Notes under the pieces: model-generated
The model's database searches: none
What the model was told of the DNA's origin: nothing
Seen by the model: the letters and a program-made list of their open reading frames with translations, nothing else
Shown: positions 10,441-61,100 of the stretch, in pieces
Numbering within the stretch: position 1 is the stretch's first letter
Layout: every line of letters begins with the position of its first letter
DNA from: Candidatus Thiodictyon syntrophicum
GTDB taxonomy: Bacteria; Pseudomonadota; Gammaproteobacteria; Chromatiales; Chromatiaceae
DNA: 64,000 nt
NCBI RefSeq assembly: GCF_002813775.1
Contig: NZ_CP020371.1
Coordinates: 62,001-126,000, forward strand
Direction: 5' to 3'
Program-made: the position numbers and the translations under genes

Positions 10441-10665
10441 TCAGGCCCGCGGCCGGACCACTGTCACCGCGCAGGGGGCATAGGCGATCACCCGCCGGGC
10501 GACCGAGCCGATCAACTGGCGCTCGAACAGGCTGTGCCCGCGGTGCCCGACCACGATGTGGTCGATGCCGTGGCCCTCGGCGTAGATCACGAGATTCAAA
10601 CCTCCCGCAGCGATGTGGGCGAGGAAGCGGTCGGCCTCGTCCCGCGTGATGACGAAACTCGTCTT
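10441..10665 (-). pseudogene. 3' fragment of a universal stress protein gene
   Basis: Reading the minus strand to the TGA at 10443-10441 gives about 75 residues including EADRFLAHI, HIVVGHRGHS, FERQLIGSVARRVI and APCAVTVVR. This is the C-terminal half of a UspA domain with the G-x2-G-x9-G(S/T) nucleotide-binding pattern partly intact. No N-terminal half is found upstream: homology stops near 10665 at the sequence TATAGGGAAATAGGGGAC, which resembles an IS end or scar. No start codon is available, so it is a remnant. Confidence 0.65.
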
Positions 10666-11465: not shown

Positions 11466-11781
11466 CCCCGCGAGGCTCGCCGTGGCGTCGGGTGCCCCGG
11501 CACCTTGCGCTGGCCCCGGCGCGGCGCGCCAGGCCCGCCGGCGGACACCGGCGGGCGTCCGATCGTGCAAACCGTAGTACCCTCAATGACTTAGCGTCGA
11601 AGCATGTTCCTACGCGAAATCTGAAGCCCTGACCCAACGCGGGAGCCGCAGATTTCGCGTAGGACCACCGAAAACGATCAATTGGTGACCGATGTTTCGG
11701 CGCGGTCCCGAAAATCCGACAGGCTACTCGCGGCTTGGCGCCCGCTGGCGCGCAATCCGCGCCGGCCCAGCCCTGGCGTGT
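11466..11781. other. Intergenic region with one strong inverted repeat
   Basis: Between the convergent parE and ihfA genes. A perfect 16-bp inverted repeat (TCCTACGCGAAATCTG at 11608-11623 and its complement at 11649-11664) with a 25-nt loop is the only structure seen. It has no T-run, so it is not a typical terminator. Confidence 0.5.
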
Positions 11782-12126
11782 TCAGGTCGTGGCGCGCCGT
11801 TCGTCGGACCCCGCAGCGGCAGCGCTCGGCTGCGCGGATCCGGCATCGGCTTCGACCCGGGCCTTGAGCTTCTGGCCGGGCCGGAAGGTCACGACACGGC
11901 GGGCGGTGATCGGGATTTCCTCACCGGTCTTTGGATTGCGCCCCGGGTGCTCCTTCTTCTCGTGCAGGGCGAAATTCCCGAACCCGGACAGTTTCACGTC
12001 CTCGCCGCGCTCCAGCGCCGTGCGCATCGCCTCAAAGAAGCCCTCGAGGATCTCGCTGGCCTCCCGTTTGTTGAGCCCAAGCTCGTCGAACAGGTGTTCT
12101 GCCATGTCGGCTTTCGTCAAGGCCAT
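11782..12126 (-). CDS. ihfA: Integration host factor alpha subunit
   Basis: A 114-residue HU/IHF-family protein. [13 protein letters not shown] at the start and the intact beta-arm region ([38 protein letters not shown]) identify the alpha subunit, including the proline that intercalates DNA. An unusual low-complexity tail ([18 protein letters not shown]) follows the normal end at about residue 97. It is not next to pheT, its usual partner, so it may be an extra copy. A broken second copy lies at 52277. IHF bends DNA for recombination and transcription. Confidence 0.9.
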
Positions 12127-13128
12127 ACCTTCAATCCTCAGTGGTGCGCGAACATCGACTCAGGACGAGCCAACACAGACCCCATCGTCTAAGCCTCTGC
12201 TTGGGCGGTCATTGTCTGAGCAGGCTCTTGTAAAATCAATCACAATGCAAGACTATTTTAGGTGATCTGGCGTTTGATGTGAGCAATGGAGTTAGGTCCG
12301 CGAAGGGGCGGCGGCCAACAGGCGGTCCTGGAGCACGGGGATCTGCCCGCGCCGCCCCTCCCGAGCCTGGTCTTGCGCCACCTGGTGACGCTCCCTCGGA
12401 CCTGATCGAGGTCTCGCTCGCCTGGTCGGGGCGAGGGTTGCTCCTCGGTCGCTCAGGCCAACGGCGATGGCTTGGATCCAGACCGCGGAAGACCGAGTGT
12501 TGCCCGGTCTGGCTTGCGGTAACGGAGGAGCAGGCTTCGGTTCAGGAGATATGCAATGAGTAAAGCATCCGTCGATGGTATGGGGGTCGAGTCGGCAGCA
12601 CTGAACGGACTGGTGGGCCAGTTGCGTGACCTGATCGCCCAGGCACGCGCCCAGGCGCTGCGTACAGTGGATGCCGTTCAAGTACGTGCCTGCTGGGAGA
12701 TTGGCCGCCATATCGTGGATTTCGAGCAGCAAGGCCACGCCCGAGCCACTTATGGAGCGCGACTGTTGCCGCAATTGGCGGAACGCCTGTCGCATGAGTT
12801 CGGCGCGGGTTTCGATGCGCGTAATTTGCGCCACATGCGCAGCTTTTTCCAAGCCTTTCCATTTTGGAACGCGGTGCGTACCGAATTGAGTTGGACGCAT
12901 TACCGCACGCTGCTGCGACTGGATAGCGAGGCGGCAAGGCAGTGGTATGTGAACGAGGCCATTGCCCAAAATTGGAGTTCACGAGCGCTGGAGCGCCAAA
13001 TTGGCACCCTCTATTACGAACGCCTGCTGTCCAGCCAGGACAAGGCGGCCGTCCAGGCTGAAGCAAGCAGTCAGGTAGCCCCCTTGAATCAATCCCCGCG
13101 TGCGTTTGTGCGCGACCCCGTGCTACTC
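11983..13128. repeat. Inverted duplication, copy 1
   Basis: This segment (5' half of ihfA, 429-bp intergenic region, first ~190 codons of a DUF1016 gene) recurs in opposite orientation at 51287-52420. The intergenic part is nearly identical and almost equal in length. The ihfA coding parts differ more after residue ~22, suggesting patchy conversion. Confidence 0.85.
12127..12555. other. Divergent intergenic region between ihfA and DUF1016
   Basis: 429 bp with no gene. It should hold the promoters of the two divergent genes; an AT-rich stretch (about 12225-12265, TTGTAAAATCAATCACAAT) stands out in otherwise GC-rich DNA. The same stretch is kept almost unchanged in the second copy near 52140-52175. 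Confidence 0.4.
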
Positions 13129-13539
13129 GAGTTTTTGGGCTTGCCGGGTACGGGCCGTTTGCTTGAAAGCGAATTAGAGCAGGGCTTGATGGATAAGCTG
13201 CAAGCCTTCCTGCTGGAACTGGGCAAGGGTTTCGCCTTTGTCGCGCGGCAGCAGCGCATCAGCACCGAGAGCAAAGATTTTTACATCGACCTCGTCTTTT
13301 ACAATTACTTACTGAAATGCTTCGTGCTGTTCGACCTGAAAACCGGCGAACTGACGCATCAGGACATCGGCCTCGCTGTCAGTCCGCCATGGGTCGGCGC
13401 GCCGCCGCCCGTCCGCCGGGCACGGCGCCGGGTGTGTCACCTGGCGCGGGGTTGGTCTGGCAGTGGCCCCCTCGGCGGCGCGGCGACGGTCACGACGCGC
13501 CCGCGGGGCCGGCCCGTGTGCGTGATACAGAATGACTAA
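12556..13539 (+). pseudogene. DUF1016 / YhcG-type PD-(D/E)XK nuclease, 3' truncated
   Basis: The first ~270 residues match the DUF1016 family: N-terminal domain (RACWEIGRHIVDFEQQG, SHEFGAGFDARNLRHMRSF, SWTHYRTLLRL) and most of the C-terminal nuclease domain (DFYIDLVFYNYLLKCFVLFDLKTGELTHQDIG). At 13371, after DIG, the frame enters unrelated GC-rich sequence, so the conserved QMDMYVR end is missing. That end survives in the second, inverted copy (51135-51846). Catalytic D and K residues remain, but a functional fold is unlikely. Members occur in restriction and defence islands. Confidence 0.75.
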
Positions 13540-13559
13540 TTCTGTCTCAGGGACCCCCG

Positions 13560-13608
13560 AAAAACGCCCCAGAAAGGGCGCCCGCGCGGGCCCAGAGGGG
13601 CGTTTTTT
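13560..13608. terminator. Long GC-rich hairpin with T-run
   Basis: AAAAACGCCCC (13560-13570) pairs with GGGGCGTTTTT (13597-13607), with a further GGGCGCCCGCGCGGGCCC fold inside. A/T runs on both sides make it usable in both directions. The adjacent sequence TCTGTCTCAGGGACC just upstream recurs inverted near 50915-50935. Confidence 0.65.
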
Positions 13609-13665
13609 GGGGTTTTCGCGGGCTGCCTTGATACACTTCCCTTAAGCCTGGAAAGAGCATTTTTT

Positions 13666-13793
13666 TCACGCAAAGACGCAAAGACGCAAAGTTTTTCAAT
13701 GCGATATCTCTGTCGTATGGTTCACCTACCGGGTGACGGGATCATCGCCAGCAAAGTTCTATTCTTCTTTGCGTTCTTGGCGTCTTTGCGTGA
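13666..13793. repeat. Inverted pair of ACGCAAAG-type repeats
   Basis: At 13666-13691 the unit ACGCAAAG is repeated in tandem; an inverted counterpart (CTTTGCGTTCTTGG..., ending TTTGCGTGA) lies at 13767-13793. This type of repeat is common in intergenic DNA of many Proteobacteria. The rest of 13609-14045 contains no gene I can recognise. Confidence 0.6.
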
Positions 13794-14045
13794 GCAATTG
13801 CCGATTCTAGGTTAAGTCATCGGTATCACAGGCACGCTGCCATGCCTCACCACTGCGCGGTTTGGGAGAAGGTATCCGATCCTTATGAAAGCTAGGCAGT
13901 CACACACGTAGCGAGGCCAAGAACCGGACCGACCGCGGGGTGGCCGCGGGATGCGCCACGGGCTAGGCTGGAGTGCTTCCGCCTATCCTTGCGAGTATTT
14001 CAAATCATTTCGCTGTTCCCGGTAGACTGAGAAGATTCCGAAACG

Positions 14046-14540
14046 GTGGAGGGGGCGATCGACGTGGCAACCAACGTTCTGCGGTCGGTGCGGTTACCGA
14101 CCGATGAAGAGGCCATTCTGGCCGCGGATAGCAGCCGGTTGCTCGCGGCCTGCGTGGGCACCGGCGAGCGGGCGCGACTGCGCCTGATCGACGGCGACGC
14201 GGACGTGACGGTCCCGGTGTCGGCGATCCATCTGCTGGTGGACATCTTGAACCAGATGGCCCAGGGCAACGCGGTCTCGCTAGTGCCAGTACATGCGGAG
14301 CTCACCACCCAGCAGGCGGCGGATCTCCTCAACGTCTCGCGGCCTTATCTGGTCAAGGGCGTAATCGGGGACAACCCACGGTTTCCCGCTCGATTTATCG
14401 ATCTAGACCGAAAACCGTGGTCTGTCGCCTATTTCCCCCTGTCCCCTATTTCCCCCCTATTTCCTTTAACAGAAATAGTAGGTATTTCCATAAGCGGCAG
14501 CAAAATAGGAGCTATGCCGGCCCTAATAGTTAAGGCGTGA
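14046..14540 (+). pseudogene. Excisionase-type HTH antitoxin, 3' truncated
   Basis: The first ~105 residues include VLRSVRLPTDEEAI, RLRLIDGDADVTVPVSAIHLLVDIL and a helix-turn-helix TTQQAADLLNVSRPYLVK. This is the architecture of MerR/excisionase-like proteins that act as antitoxins of adjacent PIN toxins. After YLVK the conserved hinge is missing and the frame runs into a scar (CTGTCCCCTATTTCCC) and then through the end of the SecB-like gene on the other strand. GTG 14064 with GGAGGGGG upstream is an alternative start. A 55-bp piece of this gene (14137-14191) recurs inverted at 50843-50897. Confidence 0.6.
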
Positions 14541-14896
14541 ACATGTTCGCGAATATATGGATATAATATCAATGGGGCATTGTGTTCTGCCCAGTGTTCA
14601 AGTTTATCCATCGGAAATCGTTCTTGGTCTACTGTAAACTTAGCAAGAAGATGGATCTTTAAATCGAACTTGGTGGTTATGTCTTTTTCCTCAATAATTT
14701 CTGGTTGCCCTATTCTTACGAATAATCCGATATCAATGGTGCTGTCGTTAATATCAAAATCAGAGTGGCCGATTCCTATCTGGAATCGGCCTTCATCGGA
14801 CTTTTGTGTTTCGTATAGGCCATTTACTCTAATAAATAGCTCCTTTACCTGTATGCCCAGTAGCTGGATAGGGTGTAACTTAAAATTATCGGCCAT
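14429..14896 (-). CDS. SecB-like chaperone of a toxin-antitoxin-chaperone module
   Basis: A 155-residue SecB-family protein: FDLKIHLLAKFTV in the beta-sheet part, and LILYPYIREHVHALTIRAGI followed by APILLPLMEIPTI, which is the helix and C-terminal segment of SecB. It differs from housekeeping SecB and lies third in a toxin-antitoxin operon, as in TAC modules where the chaperone protects the antitoxin. AAGGAG lies 7 nt before the ATG (14896). About 13 residues at the end (VKGNRGEIGDRGK) derive from a junction with foreign sequence, so the natural C-terminus may have been altered. Base composition is clearly more AT-rich than neighbours. Confidence 0.75.
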   Translation of the reverse strand: MADNFKLHPIQLLGIQVKELFIRVNGLYETQKSDEGRFQIGIGHSDFDINDSTIDIGLFVRIGQPEIIEEKDITTKFDLKIHLLAKFTVDQERFPMDKLEHWAEHNAPLILYPYIREHVHALTIRAGIAPILLPLMEIPTISVKGNRGEIGDRGK

Positions 14897-50106: not shown

Positions 50107-50121
50107 CATAGCCGTTGCCCA

Positions 50122-50448
50122 TCATTTTGCAATGCCAAAGAAAACGGCCAAACAACGCTCAACCTCTATCATAGTATCCCCATCGATGCGCCCGAAGGCT
50201 TGCCCGACCTTGTCGCGCTTCACGGTCATCGCCTTATCGACCATCACTTGTGACGGCTGCTGCAAGCCGTTCTCGGCGCTCGGCTGAACCGTGATCCGAA
50301 ACAGCGGCGCGGCAACCAGCGTGCTGGTTACCGGCAGTACGGTGACGGTGGCGTGCTCGCCGAATTGATCCGCCTGAATCACCAACGCGGGTCTTGGCTT
50401 GCCGAAATCGCCTTGCATGGCGATGGTCACAAAGTCCCCCCGCATCAT
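50122..50448 (-). CDS. mazF: MazF/PemK-type endoribonuclease toxin
   Basis: 108 residues: MMRGDFVTIAMQGDFGKPRPALVIQAD is the CcdB/MazF SH3-like start, TVLPVTSTLVAAPLFRITV the middle strand, and QVMVDKAMTVKRDKVGQAFGRID the end. The Arg and Thr/Ser typical of the RNA-cleaving site are present. It overlaps its antitoxin by 4 nt (ATGA). Confidence 0.9.
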   Translation of the reverse strand: MMRGDFVTIAMQGDFGKPRPALVIQADQFGEHATVTVLPVTSTLVAAPLFRITVQPSAENGLQQPSQVMVDKAMTVKRDKVGQAFGRIDGDTMIEVERCLAVFFGIAK

Positions 50449-50669
50449 GCCGTCCAGCCAGCCACATCCGCCACGGCTTCATCCATGAATCGCTGCATAT
50501 CCGCGTCGGCCAGATCCGCCTGAGCGGCAATCAGCGACTGGCGGCGGCATTCTTGCGCAAAGTCCGGCCGTCGCGTATCAGGCACCCAGATTTGCACCGG
50601 GCGAAGTCCTGCCCTACGCAAGGCATCGCGATGCTTTTGAACACGGGCGTTCACGGGAATCGTTGCCAA
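50445..50669 (-). CDS. mazE: MazE-type antitoxin (DUF3018 family)
   Basis: 74 residues: VNARVQKHRDALRRAGLRPVQIWVPDTRRPDFAQECRRQ is the DUF3018 hallmark, followed by an acidic toxin-binding tail (ADADMQRFMDEAVADVAGW). It precedes mazF in the normal order. Confidence 0.88.
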   Translation of the reverse strand: MATIPVNARVQKHRDALRRAGLRPVQIWVPDTRRPDFAQECRRQSLIAAQADLADADMQRFMDEAVADVAGWTA

Positions 50670-50842
50670 CGCAAATCTCCGGTTGTCTCCTCACACCAAA
50701 CAGTATAGTCAACAAGACCGTTACATGCAACACCCTTTCGGGGTCTCGGGTCTGAGGCACAGTGGAACCCGAGCCGTTGCCGGTCCAACTCAGGCCGGGC
50801 GCGCAACAGCGCCTCGGTCCATTCTCGATGGATACGCTCGGT

Positions 50843-50897
50843 TCGATCAGGCGTAGTCGCGCCCGCTCGCCGGTGCCCACGCAGGCCGCGAGCAACC
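50843..50897 (-). repeat. 55-bp fragment of the excisionase-type HTH gene
   Basis: Near-identical, inverted copy of 14137-14191 (encoding LLAACVGTGERARLRLI). It lies beside the TCTGTCTCAGGGACC block also shared with 13545-13560, so the duplicated material extends patchily beyond the main inverted repeat. The surrounding 50670-50940 has no gene. Confidence 0.7.
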
Positions 50898-50938
50898 TTT
50901 TTTGGCCCTTTTTCGGGGGTCCCTGAGACAGAATTATT

Positions 50939-51062
50939 GGCCTCAATCATCGTTCCGGCCGGCAGCCACCTTCTGGAGTCCAAGGCTTCAGCCTTGGTCT
51001 TACATATCCAAGGCTGAAGCCTTGGACTCCGACCCGCGGCGGCCGGAACGATGATCGAAGCC
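50939..51062. repeat. Dispersed hairpin/MITE-like element, best preserved copy
   Basis: Outer arms of 22 nt (50939-50960 and 51041-51062; core ATCATCGTTCCGGCC / GGCCGGAACGATGAT) and an inner perfect 23-bp inverted repeat (50975-50997 with 51008-51030). About 124 nt, no coding capacity. Confidence 0.8.
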
Positions 51063-51134
51063 GAATTATTATTTCTGTATCAAGGGGCGCCAAGGCGGGG
51101 GCGCGCCGAGGCGCCGACCCCGGGTCGTAGCGGA

Positions 51135-51846
51135 CTATTTCGAGGAACCTTCGTGAACCGAATAGCGCACGACTGAAGCATCTTTTTGCGAACACAAAAT
51201 AATGCCCACCGTCGGGTTGTCGTCGGGGCTGCGCTTCAGATCGTCGTAGATGCGCACATACATATCCATTTGGCAGTAGTACGGGGTCGCGCACAAACGC
51301 ACGCGGGGATTGATTCAAGGGGGCTAAGTGACTGCTGGCTTCAGCCTGGACGGCCGCCTTGTCTTGGCTGGACAGCAGGCGTTCGTAATACAGGGTACCA
51401 ATTTGGCGTTCCAGCGCTCGTGAACTCCAGTTTTGGGCAATGGCCTCGTTCACATACCACTGCCTTGCGGCCTCGCTATCCACTCGCAGCAGCGTCCGGT
51501 AATGCGTTCAACTCAATTCGGTACGCACTGCGTTCCAAAATGGAAAGGCTTGAAAAAAACTGCGCATGTAGCGCAAATTACGCGCATCGAAACCCGCGCC
51601 GAACTCATGCGACAGGCGTTCCGCCAATTGCGGCAACAGTCGCGCTCCATAAGCGGCGCGAGCGTGGCCTTGCTGCTCGAACTCCACGATATGGCGGCCA
51701 ATCTCCCAGCAGGCACGCACTTGAACGGCATCCACTGTACGTAGCGCCTGGGCGCGTGCCTGGGCGATCAGGCCACGCAACTGGCCCACCAGTCCGTTCA
51801 GCGCTGCCGACTCGACCCCCATGCCATCGACGGGTGCTTTGCTCAT
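51135..51846 (-). pseudogene. Second DUF1016 nuclease copy, nonsense mutation and internal deletion
   Basis: Closely related to the gene at 12556. It begins MSKAPVDGMGVESAALNGL and runs to RTELS, where TGG has become TGA (near 51510). After that stop the frame continues as THYRTLL to RDPVLL, and then at ~51287 joins directly to QMDMYVRIYDDLKRSPDDN, IILCSQKDASVVRYSVHEGSSK and a natural stop (51137-51135). The middle ~95 residues with the catalytic core are deleted. It keeps the C-terminus missing from the first copy. Confidence 0.8.
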
Positions 51847-52420
51847 TGCTTATCTCCTGAACCGAAGTCTGTTCCTCCCTTACCGCAAACCGGACCGGGC
51901 AACACGCGGTCTTCCGCGGTCTGGATCGTAAGCCATCGCCGATGGGCTGAGCGACCGAGGAGCGACCCTCGCCCCGACCAGGCGAGCGGGACCTCGATCA
52001 GGTCCGGGGGAGCGTCACCAGGTGGCGCAAGACCTGGCTCGGGAGGGTCGGCGCGGGCAGATCCCCGTGCTCCAGGACCTCCTGACGGCCGCCGCCCCTT
52101 CGCGGACCTAACCCCATGGCTCACATCAAACGCCAGATCACCTAAAATAGTCTTGTATTGTGATTGATTTTACAAGAGCCTGCTCAGACAATGACCGCCC
52201 AAGCAGAGGCTTAGACGATGGGGTCTGTGTTGGCTCGTCCTGAGTCGATGTTCGCGCACCACTGAGGATTGAAGGTATGGCCTTGACCAAAGCCGACATG
52301 GCAGAACACCTGTTCGACGAGCTTGGGCTCAACAAACGGGAGGCCAAAGACCTGATCGAGAGCTTTATTGAGGAAATCCGCACGGCGCTGGGGCGTGGCG
52401 AAGAAGTCAAACTGTCCGGG
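51287..52420. repeat. Inverted duplication, copy 2
   Basis: Inverted match to 11983-13128: ihfA 5' part, the ~430-bp intergenic region, and the N-terminal part of DUF1016. The two copies lie ~38 kb apart and face each other. Confidence 0.85.
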
Positions 52421-52498
52421 TTCGTTAGGTTATGTGAAGTGATGGCCGATAGGGGGCGCGCGTTCGTGACCCAATGTGGTCTTTCACCACGCTGTTGA
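52277..52498 (+). pseudogene. Truncated ihfA copy
   Basis: Begins [20 protein letters not shown] like the intact gene and continues to EEVKLSGF (52420), then runs into unrelated codons ([11 protein letters not shown]) and stops at 52498. The whole beta-arm and C-terminal half are missing. The sequence after residue ~22 ([20 protein letters not shown]) is closer to canonical IhfA than the copy at 11782. Confidence 0.8.
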
Positions 52499-52607
52499 AG
52501 CGCCTCCACGGGAGTTTCCCGCTCCCTGTCTTTCGACAGCAACTCCACATTTGGGCGCCCCCCGACGATCCTTGGCGGAACCAGCACTGTGGGTTCGGAG
52601 CCCGCGC
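52421..52607. other. Junction sequence between truncated ihfA and the metallopeptidase gene
   Basis: A minus-strand frame here ([18 protein letters not shown]) may be the tail of a lost transposase or other gene; no family could be named. Confidence 0.3.
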
Positions 52608-54086
52608 TCAGAAAGGCGCCCAGAGCGATTTCAGGTAGGGTTGCAGCGTGTCTTCGTCGGCATCGGAAAGCCGGCCCGAATTCTTGATCTGCCAGGCGGC
52701 AGTCTCGAAGCTCACGGCGTAATCCTCGTTGAGACGTTTGATGGCGTCCTCAATGGCCTGCCGACGAGCATCCGTGGTGCGGATGTATGCGAGTTCGGCT
52801 TCGGCTGCGCGGCCGGCCGCACCGCGGGGCAGCAGAAACTCGGCGGCGAAGGCGTTGGCGCGTTGCTCCAAGTCTGGTGCTACGCGCCCGCCGAGAACCT
52901 CGACCGCGGGCAGTGCACCCTCGGCGTCCACCAACAGGTGACAGATCTCGTGGGCGCAGGTAGATCGCTTGCCGGTCGGTAGGCGCGAGCGCAGACCACG
53001 GGTATTGACGAGCACCGTCGGCCGATGCTCCTTCCCCCAGACCGCGATGGCGTCGAGTTGCTCGCTCCCCAGGTCGTGATCGCGCACATCGACGCTCCAT
53101 TGCTTCAACAGGCCCTCCGGATCGGTTCGCCCCTCCTCATTACTCAGATATTCCCGCAATGCCTGCGCCAAGCGGTAACCTTGCACATAGGGCACATCCT
53201 CCTGGTGGTCGCGCATGACCTCGGCAGCGAGCGCGCGTGGCTCGGCAAGCGCTGGGCCCGTGCCACTGGGTATGGACTCGATATCCGCCAGGATCTGCCG
53301 AAACGCCGGGCCATCCAAGGCACCGCCGATCATCCGCGCAGCGGCTTTAAGGCTGTAGGGCACCACATCGGCGGCATCCAGCGGCCGGGGCCAGACTTGT
53401 TCGAGCGTGTGCGACGACAGGCCTGTGGCAGCCTCCAACCTGCTGCGCCGATCCAGGTCTTCGCGCGCGCGCCAACGGTTCCATGCCAGCGTCGAGCGAG
53501 CATCGTTAAGCGTCTCAGTGCGCGCCAGGATGCACTCGGCCAGAGATTGCAGGGTGCCCATGGTGTCGGCAAAGTCGAGCTGCCATTCGCGCCCGGCCGT
53601 GGCAACGCGCATCCGCAACCCTTCCCGTAGCAGCAGTAGGCCAGGCGGGAAGGCGCCCTTGAGCGATTCGCCTAAATCATGAACAAGCAGGAAGTCGTCC
53701 AACAGCCCTTCTTCGGCTTGTGCTTGCCTTTGCGCCAGGCTGCGTTGGCGCAGCTTGGCCCGGCCGCGCAGTTCGCCAAGATGCCGCGGTGCCTCAAAGC
53801 GGGACGCGAATTCGATCGGATAGGTCTCTTCTTCCTCGAGGTAGGGCCAGGCGACCGCGAGGAATTCCGGCAGGTCGATCCAGCTCCAGCGAATACCTTG
53901 CGGTTGGCCCACATCGCCGTACGGGTTGCCCCAGATCAGGGTAGTGTCAACCCAGATCTGTAGGTCACCCCAGGTGCGGCCCACCGGGCCGACGCTGCCG
54001 TAGTCGTCGCGCCAGTGGAGGATACAGCGCAGCGCGCCGGGTTTACCGAAAACCAGCTGGTCGCTCAAGATCGCTTTATCACCCAT
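52608..54086 (-). CDS. ImmA/IrrE-type zinc metallopeptidase with large N-terminal domain
   Basis: About 492 residues. The C-terminal ~170 residues form the ImmA/IrrE domain: VLVNTRGL, CAHEICHLLVD with HExxH, and LEQRANAFAAEFLLPR with the third-ligand Glu. The N-terminal ~300 residues are not recognised; they contain WGDLQIWVDTTLIWG and a helical, DNA-binding-like stretch (LEAATGLSSHTLEQVWP). ImmA-like proteases cleave repressors or antitoxins in response to damage or phage. Start at 54086 (or 54101), overlapping the upstream small gene by ~22 nt; the ORF is open to 54356 but the upstream part lies in another gene. Confidence 0.75.
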   Translation of the reverse strand: MGDKAILSDQLVFGKPGALRCILHWRDDYGSVGPVGRTWGDLQIWVDTTLIWGNPYGDVGQPQGIRWSWIDLPEFLAVAWPYLEEEETYPIEFASRFEAPRHLGELRGRAKLRQRSLAQRQAQAEEGLLDDFLLVHDLGESLKGAFPPGLLLLREGLRMRVATAGREWQLDFADTMGTLQSLAECILARTETLNDARSTLAWNRWRAREDLDRRSRLEAATGLSSHTLEQVWPRPLDAADVVPYSLKAAARMIGGALDGPAFRQILADIESIPSGTGPALAEPRALAAEVMRDHQEDVPYVQGYRLAQALREYLSNEEGRTDPEGLLKQWSVDVRDHDLGSEQLDAIAVWGKEHRPTVLVNTRGLRSRLPTGKRSTCAHEICHLLVDAEGALPAVEVLGGRVAPDLEQRANAFAAEFLLPRGAAGRAAEAELAYIRTTDARRQAIEDAIKRLNEDYAVSFETAAWQIKNSGRLSDADEDTLQPYLKSLWAPF

Positions 54087-54469
54087 TTCTGCTTCAGCCA
54101 TTTCTTCAAACGGTCGCTCTCGTCCTCGGCTACGGCTTGGGCTTCGAGCCGGGGCAGGATATCGTCCGGGATGTGGCGCGCCGCGACCGGCCAGCCATGC
54201 CAAGTCGTGCCGCCATCTGACGTACGTGCCTGATAGACGGCACCGTCGTGGTAACTCCAGAGTCGAAACGGGGTATCGGGCTGTCGCGACCTGTACTCCT
54301 CGATCGCATCTTCGAGCAGTTCCTGGGCGGCTTTGAGAGAAAAGCCCTTGGGACATTCACCGACTTCTTCTCCGTACTTGTCGACGATCCGTGCCTCGCG
54401 GCCTGTTCCCAGGTGCTTCGGTCTGTTCTCGCCCTTGTCGTACTTGTACTTGTGTTGCGGCTCGGCCAT
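54065..54469 (-). CDS. Small conserved-type protein paired with the metallopeptidase
   Basis: 134 residues: an N-terminal charged segment (MAEPQHKYKYDKGENRPKH), LEDAIEEYRSRQPDTPFRLWSYHDGAVYQARTSDGGTTWHGWP, and a basic C-terminus (LKKWLKQKWVIKRS). The overlap with the downstream gene indicates an operon pair. No known domain; it could be the substrate, partner or antitoxin of the protease, by analogy with ImmA-repressor pairs. Confidence 0.65.
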   Translation of the reverse strand: MAEPQHKYKYDKGENRPKHLGTGREARIVDKYGEEVGECPKGFSLKAAQELLEDAIEEYRSRQPDTPFRLWSYHDGAVYQARTSDGGTTWHGWPVAARHIPDDILPRLEAQAVAEDESDRLKKWLKQKWVIKRS

Positions 54470-55101
54470 CGAAATTCTACGCCGTCGAATGTTTCCGTTG
54501 CGTCGATGTTACTTCCGTTGGATTCACGGCGGCAACTGTTGGATCGGCTCTCCCGAGCAAGACCCTCGCGCCAGGGCGTCATCAACGATGATCACGCACG
54601 GGACTTGATCGCCGACACGGACGTGGCCGCGAGCCGCGCGACCCTTGCACTGGTCGGGCCACGGCGCGAGTGCCCCCGTCACTGCGCCGACAGACCAACG
54701 GCCGATAAGGTTCTTTATGTGAAGTGACGGGCGCGGGACGAGCGTGCTCATGGCCACTGCCGCCTCAAGCCCCATGGTCAGGGTCTCGATACCGTCGATT
54801 ACCAGAGGGTAGGTGCGGACACTTAGAAGGTGCCGGCACTGCCCAGGGATGTTGCCGACATACGCGCCCGCGATGGGTGGTGAAATGAAGCAGGCCATTG
54901 AAGTTGGCGGCTGCGTCGATCAGATGCGTGTCGATCACGATCCACCCACTGCCACGGCCAGCGCAATTCATCGCAGTCGTCACACCGCCGCCGTGGGCGG
55001 TGATGGTGCCCACACCGGACAGAGCGCCAACCCGGCGGTCGGCACTGCGCGTGAAGCGGACGGTAGCCGTCCTCACGCGTGTCCGGCGACTGGACGCGAA
55101 C
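54470..55101. other. Intergenic region with a decayed repeat of the giant protein
   Basis: On the minus strand about 54890-55020 the sequence encodes GVGTITAHGGGVTTAMNCAGRGSGWIVIDTHLIDAAANF, a degenerate match to the repeat (SISANGG, GGGGGRVAI, VDGTDAF) of the giant protein, lying after its stop codon and out of frame. The rest (54470-54880) has no recognised gene. Confidence 0.5.
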
Positions 55102-58100
55102 TCAAGGTGCGACCACCTCGAGATGGACCGTACCCGCCGTGCCATCACCATAAGCACCGTCCCCACCCCGGGTCTGGATATTGCCGCCCGGCAGGCTCAG
55201 CGTGCCGCTGTAGCGGATGCCGATGCGCCCGCCGCCACCACCGACGTGGCTACCGCCGCCGGTGGTGCCGCCACTGGCCGTGATCAGCCCACTGCCCGTC
55301 AGGTCACCGGTACGGATGTTGACCGTGCCGCCGGATCCCTCGCCTGAGGCCGAGCCGGTGGAGAGACTGCCGTCGGCATGGATCTCCCCGTCGTTCTCGA
55401 TGGCCCCGGCAGTGATGAAGACCCGGCCGCCGCCGTCGCCGCCCGTCCCGCCCCAGGCGCCACCGCCGCTGCCCAGGTCCGCAGGGTCGGTCGGGCTACC
55501 ATAGACGAGGTTGGTTACCCCGTCGGCCCCGCTGTAATGGCCACCGATGCCGCCGTAGCTCCCGCCGTTACCCCGCTGGGCGCCAGCCGTGAAGTCCAGG
55601 GTATACGCGGTCTCGCCCAGACCCCCCTTGTTGCCCCCAAGGTACCCGCGGCCGGTGACGTCGATGCGCCCTGTCGCGTCGATCGTCAGCGTCCCGGCCT
55701 CGATATCGAGCATGGCCGCATAGGTCGTCGTGGTCTCCGGATGCGTCATCAACCCATGCTCGGTGATGCGCAGGGTATCGGTGACTGTCAGTCGATCGCC
55801 CAGATCCAGATGACCGGCCCCGCGCAGCGTCAGATTGGTGTAGCGATAGTCGCCGACATAGCCCTTGCCCACAGCCGCCACATCCATGAAGTCCACACCG
55901 TTCTCGTTGGGGGTCTCCACCACGATCTCGGTCCCCGTGTTGGCGAGAATGGTGAAGGACTCCACCTGCTCGAGGTCCGGGTTGATCCGCAGACCCACCA
56001 AGGCGTTGGTCAGGAGGGGTATCTCACCATCGGTCGTCAGGCTATCGGCCGTCACCGCGGTCGTCACCCCGGGGCCCATCAGCGAGAACGGCGTGCCCAT
56101 CGGCGAACTGACGCCCGTGTCGTTGTCGTCGATGATCAACTCGTCCACACCGCCGATCTTCAGATAGACGGTCCCGGCGCCGCCGCGGGTGTTGTCGTAA
56201 TAGCCCCGACCGCGCCAGGCGCTGATCGCCCGCAGACCGGCAAAGGCGTCGGTGCCGTCCACCGCGTCCGCGTCGATGGCCACCCGCCCGCCGCCGCCGC
56301 CGACGTGGTTGCCGCCATTGGTGGTGCCGCCGTTGGCGGAGATGCTGCCGGCACCGGCCAGGTGCGCGGTGGTGATCCACACCGAACCGCCGGCGCCCTC
56401 GCCCGAGGCGCTGCTGCTGGAGAGACTGCCGTCGGCGCGGATGGCCCCCTCGACGATGACCGATTCGCTCGCCTGGATGCGGACATACCCTCCGCCGTCA
56501 CCGCCGACTCCACCCCAGGCACCGCCGCCGCTGCCGAGTCGATTCGGCCGCGCGGGATCACCATAGACCGGACTTGCGTTCCCGCTCGCACCGCTGTAAG
56601 AAGCACCGAGCCCGCCGTGACTGCCGCCGTGGCCACGCTGAGCGCCGGCCGCAAAGCCCAGGGTGTGGGCAGTCTCGCCGAGCCCTGACTTGTTACCGCC
56701 AAGGTACCCACGCCCCGTCACATCGATGGCACCACCGGACTCCACGACGACCCGCGCAGCCTGGATCTGCAGACCGGCCTCAAGACCGCCGCTATGGGTC
56801 AGGGTGGAATTGGCGCCGATCGACAGGGTTCCGAGCACCCGCAGTCCCGCATCGGCCACTACCCGGGCGCCGTTGCGCAACACGATGTTGTCGAAGGTCA
56901 GACCGCCCGGGATGGTGACCGTGTCGGTCGGCTGGACAAGCCCCAGACCGTCGATGGTCAGGTCGCCATAGGTCTGACCCGCACCCTTCAGGTAGAGGGT
57001 CCCATGACCGCCGTCACCAAAGTAGCCATCCCCACCACGGCTCTGGATATTGACCTGCGGCAGGCTCAGGGTACCGCTGTAGCGGATGGCGATCCGTCCA
57101 CCGCCGCCCCCGGTGTGGTTGCCGCCGCCGGTGGTTCCGCCATTGGTCGTGATCAGCCCGTTGCCGGTCAGAGTTCCGGTGCGGATATTGACCGTGCCGC
57201 CGGACCCCTCGCCTGACGCCGAGCCGCTGGAGAGGCCGCCATCGGCATGGATCGCCCCCGCATTATGGATCGCCGCCGCGGTGATGAAGACCCGACCGCC
57301 GCCGTCGCCGCCCGCCCCACCCCAGGAACCGCCACCACTACCGAGGTCCTGCGGGTCGGTCAGGCTGCCATAGAGTGGGTTGGCCGCGTTCCCGCCGGCC
57401 CCGCTGTAATGGCCGCCGAGTCCGCCGTAGCTGCCGCCATTGCCCGACTGGGCGCCGGCGGTGAGGTCCAGGGTGTGCGCGGTGCCGCCGAGCCCGGCCC
57501 GGTCGCCACCGAGATAGCCGTGACCCGTCACGTCGATGCGCCCGGTGGCGTCGATCTCCAGGGTGCCGACCTCCAGGTCCAGCACCGCCTCATAGGTCGC
57601 GGTGGTCTGCGGGTGCGTCAGCAGGCCGTATTCGTCAATACGCAGGGTATCGGTGACCGTCAGCCGATCACCCATTTCCAGATAACCGCCGCGGCGCAGC
57701 CGCAGGTTGGTGTAGCGATAATCGCCCGCGTAGCCCTTGCCGACCGCTGCCACATCCGCGAAGCGGACACCATGCTCATTGGGCGTCGCGACCCGGATGC
57801 TGCCGGTGTCGTTGGCAAGGATCGTGAAGCACTCGGCCTGATTGAGGTCGGGGTTGAGCCGCAGCCCCACCAAGACATCGGGGAACAGCGGCAGGACGCC
57901 GTCCGTGGTGAGGGTATCCGCGGTCACCGCCCGGGTCAGGCCTGGCCCCATCAAGGGCAAGGGGGTTCCGGTCGCCGCCGTGGTCGTGGACTCGTTGTCG
58001 TCGATGATCAGGTCTTCGACTCCGCCGATCTTCAGATAGACGGTCCCGGCGCTGCCGCGGGCGCTGCCGCCGGTGTTGTCGTAGTAGCCCCGCCCACGCC

Positions 58101-61100
58101 AGGCGCTGATGGCCCGCAGACCGGCAAAGGCGTCGCTGCCGTCCACATAGTCGGCGTAGATGGCCACCCGGCCGCCGCCGCCACCGGTGTGGTTAGCGCC
58201 GCCGGTGCCGCCGCCGTTGGCGGAGATGCTGCCGCCCCCTGCCAGGCGCGAGGTAGTGATCCACACCGAACCGCCGGCGCCCTCGCCGGAGGCGCTCCCG
58301 CTGGAGAGGCCGCCATCGGCGCGGATGGCCCCCTCCACAATGACCGCCTCGCTGGCGATGATCCGCAGAGAGCCGCCGCCGTCGCCGCCGGCCCCACCCC
58401 AGGCGCCGCCACCGCTGCCGAGCCGATCCGGCCGTCTGGGATCGCCATAGACCGGGTTGGTCGTGTTCCCGCCGGCACCCCCGTAATGGCCGCCGAGGCC
58501 GCCGTGACTGCCGCCGTTGCCCGATTCGGCCCCGGCCAAGAAGCCCAAGGTGTGTGCGGTGCCCCCGAGCCCCGCCTTGTCGCCCCCGAGATAACCACGA
58601 CCCGTCACGTCGATGGCGCTGCCGGACTCGACGATCACGCGCCGCGCCTCGATCTGCAGACCGGCCTCGTTGGCGGTCGGACTGGTGAGCAGCGAATTGT
58701 CCCGCAGGCGCAGGGTCTGCGCGAGCTTGATCGGTTCCTGGACAATCACCCGCGCCCCGTTCTGCAGGGTGATGGCATCGAAGGTCTGGCCGGGCGGCAT
58801 GATGAGATCCGTGAAGGGCGAGTTGGCCCCTTGCCCGTTGAGCACCAATTCACCGCCGGCCTGCCCTTCTGCGAGCAGGTAGACGGTGCCATCCGCCCCG
58901 TCCCCGTAGTAGCCGTCGCCGCCCTTTGCCGTGATACCGGCCAGGTTCAGGGTGCTGATATCCAGCGAGCGGATGGCGACGCGCCCGCCGCCGCCGCCGG
59001 TGTGGTTGGCACCGCCGGTGCCGCCACCGTTGGCCGTGATGGTCCCCTTACCGGAGAGCGTGCGGGCCGCCAGATTGATGCTGCCGCCGGAACCCTCGCC
59101 GGAGGCCGAGCCGCTGGAAAGGCCGCCGTCGACGCGGACTGCGCCGTCGACCGCGAGGTTGATGGCCGAGAGCAAGACCCGCCCGCCGCCGTCGCCCCCG
59201 GCACCGCCCCAGGCGCCGCCACCGCTGCCCAGGTCGACCGGGTTGACCAGATTGCCGTTGACCGGGTTCGACACGGCGCTTCCGGAGCCGCTGTAATGAC
59301 CGCCGAGACCGCCGTAACTGCCGCCGTTGCCCGACTGGGCGCCCGGCAGAAAGCCGACGGTATGGGCGGTACCGCCGAGCCCGGCCCGATCACCGCCGAG
59401 ATAGCCGCGGCCGACCACATCAAGGCGGCTGGTCGCGTCGATGCTCAGGGTCCAGACCTGCACATGCAGGCCGAAGGCCTCGGTTTGCGTGGTCTCACGG
59501 TGGGTGAGGACAGCGCCGTTCAGGAGTTCGACATTGTGGAAGGTCCGGTCGCCGACCAGGGTCAGCGTGGCGCCCTGGACGCGGACGTTGCGGCCATCGA
59601 AGGCGGCGTCGGCGATCTCGGTATTGCTGGTGATCAGCAGCACCGAGGCGCCGGTGGCGAAGGTGGCAGTGGCGCCTGAGTCTCCCATCGGCGCGCCCTG
59701 GACATCCGCGGGCAGGGGCTCGCGGTTACCGGCCAGGTCTACGCCGACGGTCGCGAACTCATAGCTGCCGTCTCCCCCCATCCGGGTCGCATCGAAGGCG
59801 ATGGTACCGGTCGCACCGCCGGGGGACGGGAACTCCCCGTTGCCGGTCCCGTCGGCGCCGGTGTAGCGGTTGAAGGTGCCTAATCCATTACGGCGGAACC
59901 ACAGCTCGACATGGGCGAGATCGGTGAGCCCATCGGTGACCTGATAGCTGACCTGGGTGACCACGCCGGTGCCCGGACTGGCTGCGGCGGTTGCAAGCGT
60001 CGCCGGCGGCGTGATGTCGGCCCCGGTCAGGATCACGTCCACCGGGATCGCCGCCCCCTCATTGCCGGCCGCATCGCTGGCAAAGGCCAGCAGCCGTAGT
60101 TCGGTGCCGGGGGTGCCGGGCGGCACGGTGAGCGTGAAGGCGGCGCTCGCCGGGGTCGCGGCCGGCTGCACCTGGACCTGATCGGCCAGGGTCAGGGCGC
60201 CGGTGGTGGCGACACGGATCGAGGCCACGCCCACCGCGTCCGCCGCGGTGACCTGCACCAGGATGTGGTCGCCGAAGTTGTACGGGGTCTGCGGCGCGGG
60301 CGCGGTGATCGACACCGTCGGCGCGGTCTGATCGACCACGGTCAGCGTCACCACCGCGACCGGGGCGCTGTGCCCGGCGGTGTCGGTGGCGGCGGCCTCC
60401 AGACGCAAGGTGCCGCCGATGGCCACGTTGCCCGGCACCGTGAAACTGAGGCTACGCACGGCATCGTTGGCGGCCGGGCTCACCACGATCTGGCGGCTGT
60501 CGGTGACGGCGCCGCTGGCCGTGACCGTGATGCCGGTGACACCGCCGACCGCGTCCTGGGCGCGCACGGTGACGCCAATGACGGCACCGGGTTCGACCTG
60601 ACCGCCGGTGGCCGGGGTCAGGATCGCGACCGTCGGCGAGGTATCCAAGGTGCTGTTGACGGCCACCGGCACCGCGACCGCCGGCAGGCCGCCCGCGGTC
60701 ACATAGACCAGCGTCGCGCCGTTGCCGACCGCGGTGATGCGCCCACCGGCGGTGACGCTCGCCACTGCCGCATCGGCGCTGGAGAAACTCGCCTGGGCGG
60801 TCAGGGTCTGGGTGCTGCCATTGCTGTAGCGCCCGGTGACGGCCAGTTGACTGGTCTCACCGAGGAAGCTCAGGGCGATCGGCGTGGGCGTCACCTGCAA
60901 GGATTGCAGCGTGACGATGGACACCGTCACCGGCACCCGGGCCTCCCGCCCACCGGCGGTGACGACGATCTCGGCCGTACCGCTGCCGACCGCGGCCACG
61001 CGGCCGGCGGTGGTGACCGTGGCCACCGTGGGGGCGGTCGACGCGAAGCCGGCGGTGGCGGTCAGATCAGCACTGGCGCCATTGTCATACTGGCCGGTGA

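Follow-up and report, generated by a model that had tools for sequence, protein, structure and literature searches.

The carboxysome genes of "Thiodictyon syntrophicum" Cad16T, a purple sulfur bacterium, lie on the plasmid pTs417 within a 38-kb block that is enclosed by two inverted copies of one cassette, and the DUF1016 gene is broken in both copies. We take this arrangement to reflect an inverted duplicate of the cassette that decayed late, within a rearranging stretch of the plasmid, the two genes having been broken separately (probability roughly 0.55). The gain is chiefly one of annotation: the two DUF1016 genes are relics, and the duplication is not a switch by which a nuclease gene is restored. 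The carboxysome block of pTs417 sits, at the same time, between inverted repeats that could support its inversion.

The window analysed here is a stretch of 64,000 nucleotides of pTs417 (C2:62001-126000), and the coordinates below refer to it unless the plasmid or another contig is named. The published genome of Cad16T, sequenced by PacBio at 200x, consists of a chromosome of 6,837,296 bases and the plasmids pTs417 (416,864 bases) and pTs485 (484,824 bases), and the carboxysome genes were assigned to pTs417 (PMC5944118); the main text of that paper contains no word beginning with 'pseudogene', 'duplicat' or 'inver'. When the window was compared with itself, copy A (11979-13127, plus strand) and copy B (51275-52424, minus strand) were identical at 1082 of 1150 positions (94.1%, one gap, E = 0.0), and the inverted duplication that the earlier note had described on either side of the 38-kb block with the carboxysome genes is thus real. 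The mismatches are distributed unevenly, with 17 in the 78 bp of 11979-12056, inside ihfA, and two in the following 228 bp (12057-12284).

The full cassette was found in an uncultured Lamprocystis sp. (Loc080925-5-5m_bin-0833, hereafter G007; its DUF1016 protein is that of locus L171, with 100% identity over 352 residues), in which ihfA is followed by ~430 bp and a DUF1016 gene of 352 amino acids. Low identity in the intergenic part, which the earlier note would have counted against its proposal, was not what we found: the two copies share 94.9% over 429 bp, whereas A and B are 81.9% and 83.3% identical to G007, respectively. The duplication therefore postdates the divergence from G007, unless the copies have been partly homogenised. 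The N part of the coding region separates the two dates only weakly, as A and B are 95.1% identical to each other there, and B and A are 94.2% and 92.7% identical to G007. Independent entry of the two copies is accordingly opposed by the intergenic part, while the difference in the N part is small. No record in the plasmid collection covered 80% of the query, the best place reaching 29%; among the viral contigs scanned for relatives, four stretches fitted a pattern and none was confirmed.

At the ihfA end the copies differ, as the earlier note had it, in that one gene is intact and the other cut. The ihfA-type gene of copy A (11782-12126, minus strand; IHF alpha, PF00216) is a full frame of 114 amino acids that scores 152.7 bits against the NCBIfam model TIGR00987 (cut-off 120.25), and copy B holds a 5' fragment (52277-52424, plus strand) whose homology to copy A stops at 52424. 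The segment 12061-12126 of copy A is 95% identical to another ihfA of G007 and 83% identical to the ihfA linked to DUF1016 in that genome, which suggests exchange between paralogues. Sequences similar to ihfA are present in multiple copies in the genome, also at C1:5635123 and C2:155769.

The YhcG family, to which the DUF1016 genes belong, has been predicted to be a PD-(D/E)XK nuclease for which no function was known (PMC1189080). Copy A retains residues 1-272 of the 352-residue relative (12556-13372, plus strand; Pfam and alignment to G007), and after the break at 13369-13372 continues as an unrelated tail up to the stop at 13539. It thus lacks its C-terminus, as was claimed before. Copy B retains residues 1-190 (51275-51846, minus strand), with a nonsense codon at codon 113; after residue 190 a 242-bp deletion follows, and the homology re-enters at 51274-51272 (residue 272/273) in a changed frame, such that residues 273-311 lie out of frame and are followed by an unrelated end (51135-51274, minus strand; homology to the relative stops at 51155). 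The description of copy B as lacking only its middle and having a nonsense codon was therefore right on the deletion and the stop, and wrong in 'only', because neither copy retains the final 41 residues of the G007 protein. For the same reason the statement that each copy keeps what the other lost holds for residues 191-311 and fails for the final 41.

The domain matches agree with these boundaries. Against the DUF1016_N profile (cut-off 32.8 bits), copy A scores 147.9 bits over positions 2-137 of 137, and copy B scores 87.5 bits over positions 2-92 in its first frame and 143.6 bits over positions 2-137 if the stop is read through. Neither copy carries a complete YhcG_C PDDEXK domain: copy A spans profile positions 3-89 of 157, and no match to YhcG_C was detected in the two DUF1016 frames of copy B that were scanned, which do not comprise its out-of-frame C piece. 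The G007 protein matches the PADLOC candidate PDC-S02 over its residues 13-347, covering positions 10-345 of the 351 in PDLC04807, and copy A covers positions 10-270. Both domains of the DUF1016/YhcG PDDEXK family (PF17761 and PF06250; PDC-S02) are consequently matched by copy A and the N domain by copy B, unlike typical members in that both are truncated. The product of copy A may still be expressed; judging from the incomplete nuclease domain and the unrelated tail, nuclease activity of such a product is doubtful. Seven further matches to DUF1016_N were found on the chromosome, five of them within open frames of 364-455 amino acids. The relative G006 has no DNA match to this DUF1016 subtype, yet two DUF1016_N genes are present in it.

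The substitution pattern bears on when the damage occurred. With G007 as the outgroup, the changes in the N part (~138 synonymous and ~432 non-synonymous sites) were polarised into 11 synonymous and 6 non-synonymous on the A branch and 6 and 2 on the B branch, one of the latter 2 being the nonsense codon; between G007 and the positions at which A and B agree there were 16 and 6. If there were no constraint, synonymous excesses of this size would have binomial P values of 0.0005 (A) and 0.0035 (B), in a test that presumes simple descent and could be blurred or weakened by the sequence exchange between A and B that the uneven identity suggests. The middle of A differs from G007 by 12 synonymous and no non-synonymous changes, and the C part of B by 5 and none. 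Both copies seem, from these counts, to have been under purifying selection for most of their divergence, and the damage to the DUF1016 genes accordingly looks late.

This bears on the origin of the duplication as well. Staggered breaks at the ends of an inverted segment can generate, in one event, inverted copies at both ends of the inverted block, a mechanism discussed for Drosophila inversions, and the geometry on pTs417, with inverted copies flanking the block, would suit it. We nevertheless hold such an origin to be very improbable, as both copies show selection after the duplication, their identity is uneven along their length, and on their inner sides both continue into one and the same downstream unit.

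What the late breaks do not easily explain is their position. The point at which A loses the gene and that at which B re-enters it coincide to the base, the trinucleotide GCC being kept in both copies, and such a meeting is not predicted by separate events; the rough chance of the coincidence is about 1% if five offsets are allowed and 2% if eleven are. We placed the breakpoints by comparison with relatives whose gene runs uninterrupted through this position. The gene is contiguous with GGC-CA at this point in G033 (which matches Allochromatium warmingii DSM 173), G001 and G029, and GGCC is contiguous gene sequence in G033, whose frame is broken near residue 114, so that it is usable solely as evidence of contiguity. 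G007 is contiguous as well, but reads GAT-CAA. The 148 bp that replace the C-terminal part of A (13373-13520, plus strand; hereafter X) resemble DNA lying outside DUF1016 in relatives: G001:C177 and G004:C381 match at 81% over 93 bp, and a region of G005:C278 upstream of a 92-aa frame matches at 85% over 46 bp. Because the likeness of G001 and G004 begins at 13369 and so includes GGCC, the junction in A looks like unrelated DNA joined at a match of 3-4 bp.

A single rearrangement might account for the meeting of the breaks. If both A (at residue 272/273) and B were broken at once and the 38-kb block rejoined in reverse, the middle of A would now face the far side of B, the N part of B would face the C part of A, and the split halves would stand at the block ends. 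Genes altered at inversion breakpoints in Drosophila offer a parallel, with one split point whose halves come to lie at opposite ends of a block; here, however, B also has an N part of its own, and filler DNA is needed for the joining. The exact meeting at GCC, the contiguity of GGCC in G033 and of GGC-CA in G001 and G029, and the selection that suggests both genes were whole until late are all consistent with such an event. In G005:C258, the segment of plasmid 56082-56262 adjoins the M78 gene where the latter ends (plasmid position 114591), the arrangement that a 58-kb inversion in one lineage would produce; this segment has no other match in pTs417 or the compared loci. Moreover, G006:C828 carries pieces of the left outer flank (10441-10603 and 11514-11878) ~10 kb from a copy of a mazEF-like unit that corresponds to the right inner end of the block (50126-50729), although this unit is multicopy and its placement in G006 proves little.

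Several observations speak against a single inversion, which we judge to be unlikely. As the homology of B stops exactly at the supposed break, it would require that the middle of B, its C-terminus and the DNA after them gave way to X, either during that one event or through a second coincidence. G007 reads GAT-CAA rather than GGC-CAA at the break point; apart from G006:C828, none of the eleven contigs or contig parts examined joins the block interior to the outer flank in reverse; and GC skew gave no sign either way. Were it true, the shared break would mark an inversion of a plasmid-borne carboxysome region.

Two attempts to fix the orientation of the block gave no result. The mazEF-like unit (50114-50731) was dropped as a marker, since G006 (C333 and C828) and G005 (C278) contain further copies and pTs485 matches it in part. 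G006 is ~93-98% identical in most pieces that match the block interior, and collinearity inside the block extends over its contigs C821, C516 and C246, none of which reaches the DUF1016 copies. The M78/IrrE-type gene beyond the right end of the block (52591-54558), for which the PADLOC hits include capP and RmrA, adjoins in G005:C258 a sequence that lies 58 kb off in pTs417, which is a second rearrangement.

The breaks might alternatively meet because the DUF1016 gene tends to break at certain positions. Among 80 related loci, 58 gave a single alignment over residues 30 to 325; among the other 22 are cases at contig ends and loci where a full-length copy is accompanied by further fragments (L174, L176, L215, L224 and L238). 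Internal deletions with both sides joined were found in L226, L231, L232 and L248, and L236 was excluded, its parts being separated by ~190 bp of other DNA. In these four and copy B, residues 187-191 contain three of the five exits and residues 266-272 three of the five re-entries, the exit of L231 having been placed by eye near residue 188-190 (196 by tblastn) and taken as 190 in the simulation. In the simulation, clustering had a P value of 0.011 at the exits, 0.098 at the re-entries and about 0.0015 at the two combined, for windows picked after seeing the data. Copy A also stops at the second cluster, and L232:3001-3720, from a Nitrosomonadales MAG, has lost residues 188-269, nearly the stretch lost from B; decay of the DUF1016 gene thus occurs elsewhere too. 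The deletion-junction pattern was found in one of 369 genomes of the class, that of Cad16T itself. The support for a fragile site as the cause of the meeting breaks is therefore mixed. If real, it would tell how a widespread nuclease family decays. That either both genes broke when the carboxysome block inverted in one recent event, or DUF1016 has preferred breaks near residues 187-191 and 266-272, appears to us rather improbable.

The region downstream of DUF1016 tells how the cassettes decayed at another place. The duplication was once longer than 1.1 kb, as A and B both extend into remnants of one unit of an HTH gene and a PIN gene. In G005:C258 the unit is complete and comprises, besides a short leader and a conserved palindromic segment, an HTH gene of 156 amino acids (HTH_17) and a PIN-domain gene of 189 (PIN_3, 46.5 bits, cut-off 27); given the pairing, the HTH gene is probably the antitoxin and the PIN gene the toxin. 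Beyond the main repeat, A and B share the pieces 13537-13567/50909-50936 and 14137-14191/50843-50897. Copy A retains the segment at 13521-13567 (plus strand), partly common to that of B at 50909-50936 (minus strand), and the 5' part of the HTH gene at 14046-14356 (plus strand; 87% to G005:C258 4918-5464). Copy B retains, all on the minus strand, the leader (51073-51141; 88% to G005:C258 5587-5655), 55 bp of the HTH gene (50843-50897, matching the G005 unit) and 73 bp of the PIN gene (50770-50842; 93% to G005:C258 4578-4650).

The insertion and the deletions are particular to each copy. In B, a dispersed palindromic element of 124 bp (50939-51062) is inserted in the segment between 8-bp repeats (AATAATTC at 51063-51070 and 50931-50938), and in A the unit contains a dispersed repeat (13643-13815) that G005 lacks at this position. 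Here the break positions of the two copies do not coincide, and 267 bp (G005:C258 4651-4917) are gone from both. Decay at this place, hence, need not in general leave complementary pieces. The palindromic element has the core CCAAGGCTTCAGCCTTGG and belongs to a MITE-like family; of 81 own-genome matches listed, 77 hit it, both strands of the palindrome being counted. The repeat in A contains runs of CGCAAAGACGCAAAG, and 34 of 37 own-genome matches fall on it.

The pieces, their breakpoints and the pattern of substitutions are observed; that the breaks arose separately, and that the copies serve no purpose as a pair, we infer on balance. Under late and separate decay, two paralogous cassettes (ihfA, the divergent DUF1016/YhcG nuclease gene and the HTH/PIN unit) would have ended up in opposite orientation on pTs417, and both DUF1016 genes would have been selected for most of their separate history before late illegitimate breaks. 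The DNA of A past residue 272 would then have been swapped for unrelated DNA joined at the GGCC match, and the 242-bp internal deletion would have taken out most of the nuclease domain of B. The downstream unit would have eroded differently in each copy through dispersed elements and deletions. For the remaining relics, the sole plausible present effect as a pair would be to supply homology for an occasional inversion of the 38-kb block.

Such an inversion is possible in principle. The two copies of ~1.15 kb, inverted and 94% identical, resemble known substrates of homologous recombination between inverted repeats, with the difference that the assembly shows one orientation and no alternative is known. 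The earlier note had gone further, in what amounts to a reversible switch: the 38-kb carboxysome block would flip, and a full nuclease gene could be regained. The exact runs between the repeats, the longest being 131 bp, would suit it, but no recombinase Pfam match was found among the scanned frames near the block ends, and the gene cannot be rebuilt. We simulated single crossovers at all 1150 positions of the shared DNA. Products joining the left of A to the right of B were of 112 or 299 residues, the latter unrelated past residue 190, and those joining the left of B to the right of A were of 112 or 327 residues, the latter being the truncated frame of A itself. None of the 1150 crossovers yielded a full frame and the last 41 residues are lost from both copies, so the claim of rebuilding fails, and we give the reversible switch scarcely any credence.

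Two further frames lie near the block. A small gene at its left end (14429-14896) is SecB-like (26.8 bits, cut-off 26) and also matches the C part of PD-T4-9 (45.7 bits). On the minus strand at 55102-63975, a single open frame of 2957 amino acids contains long internal repeats.
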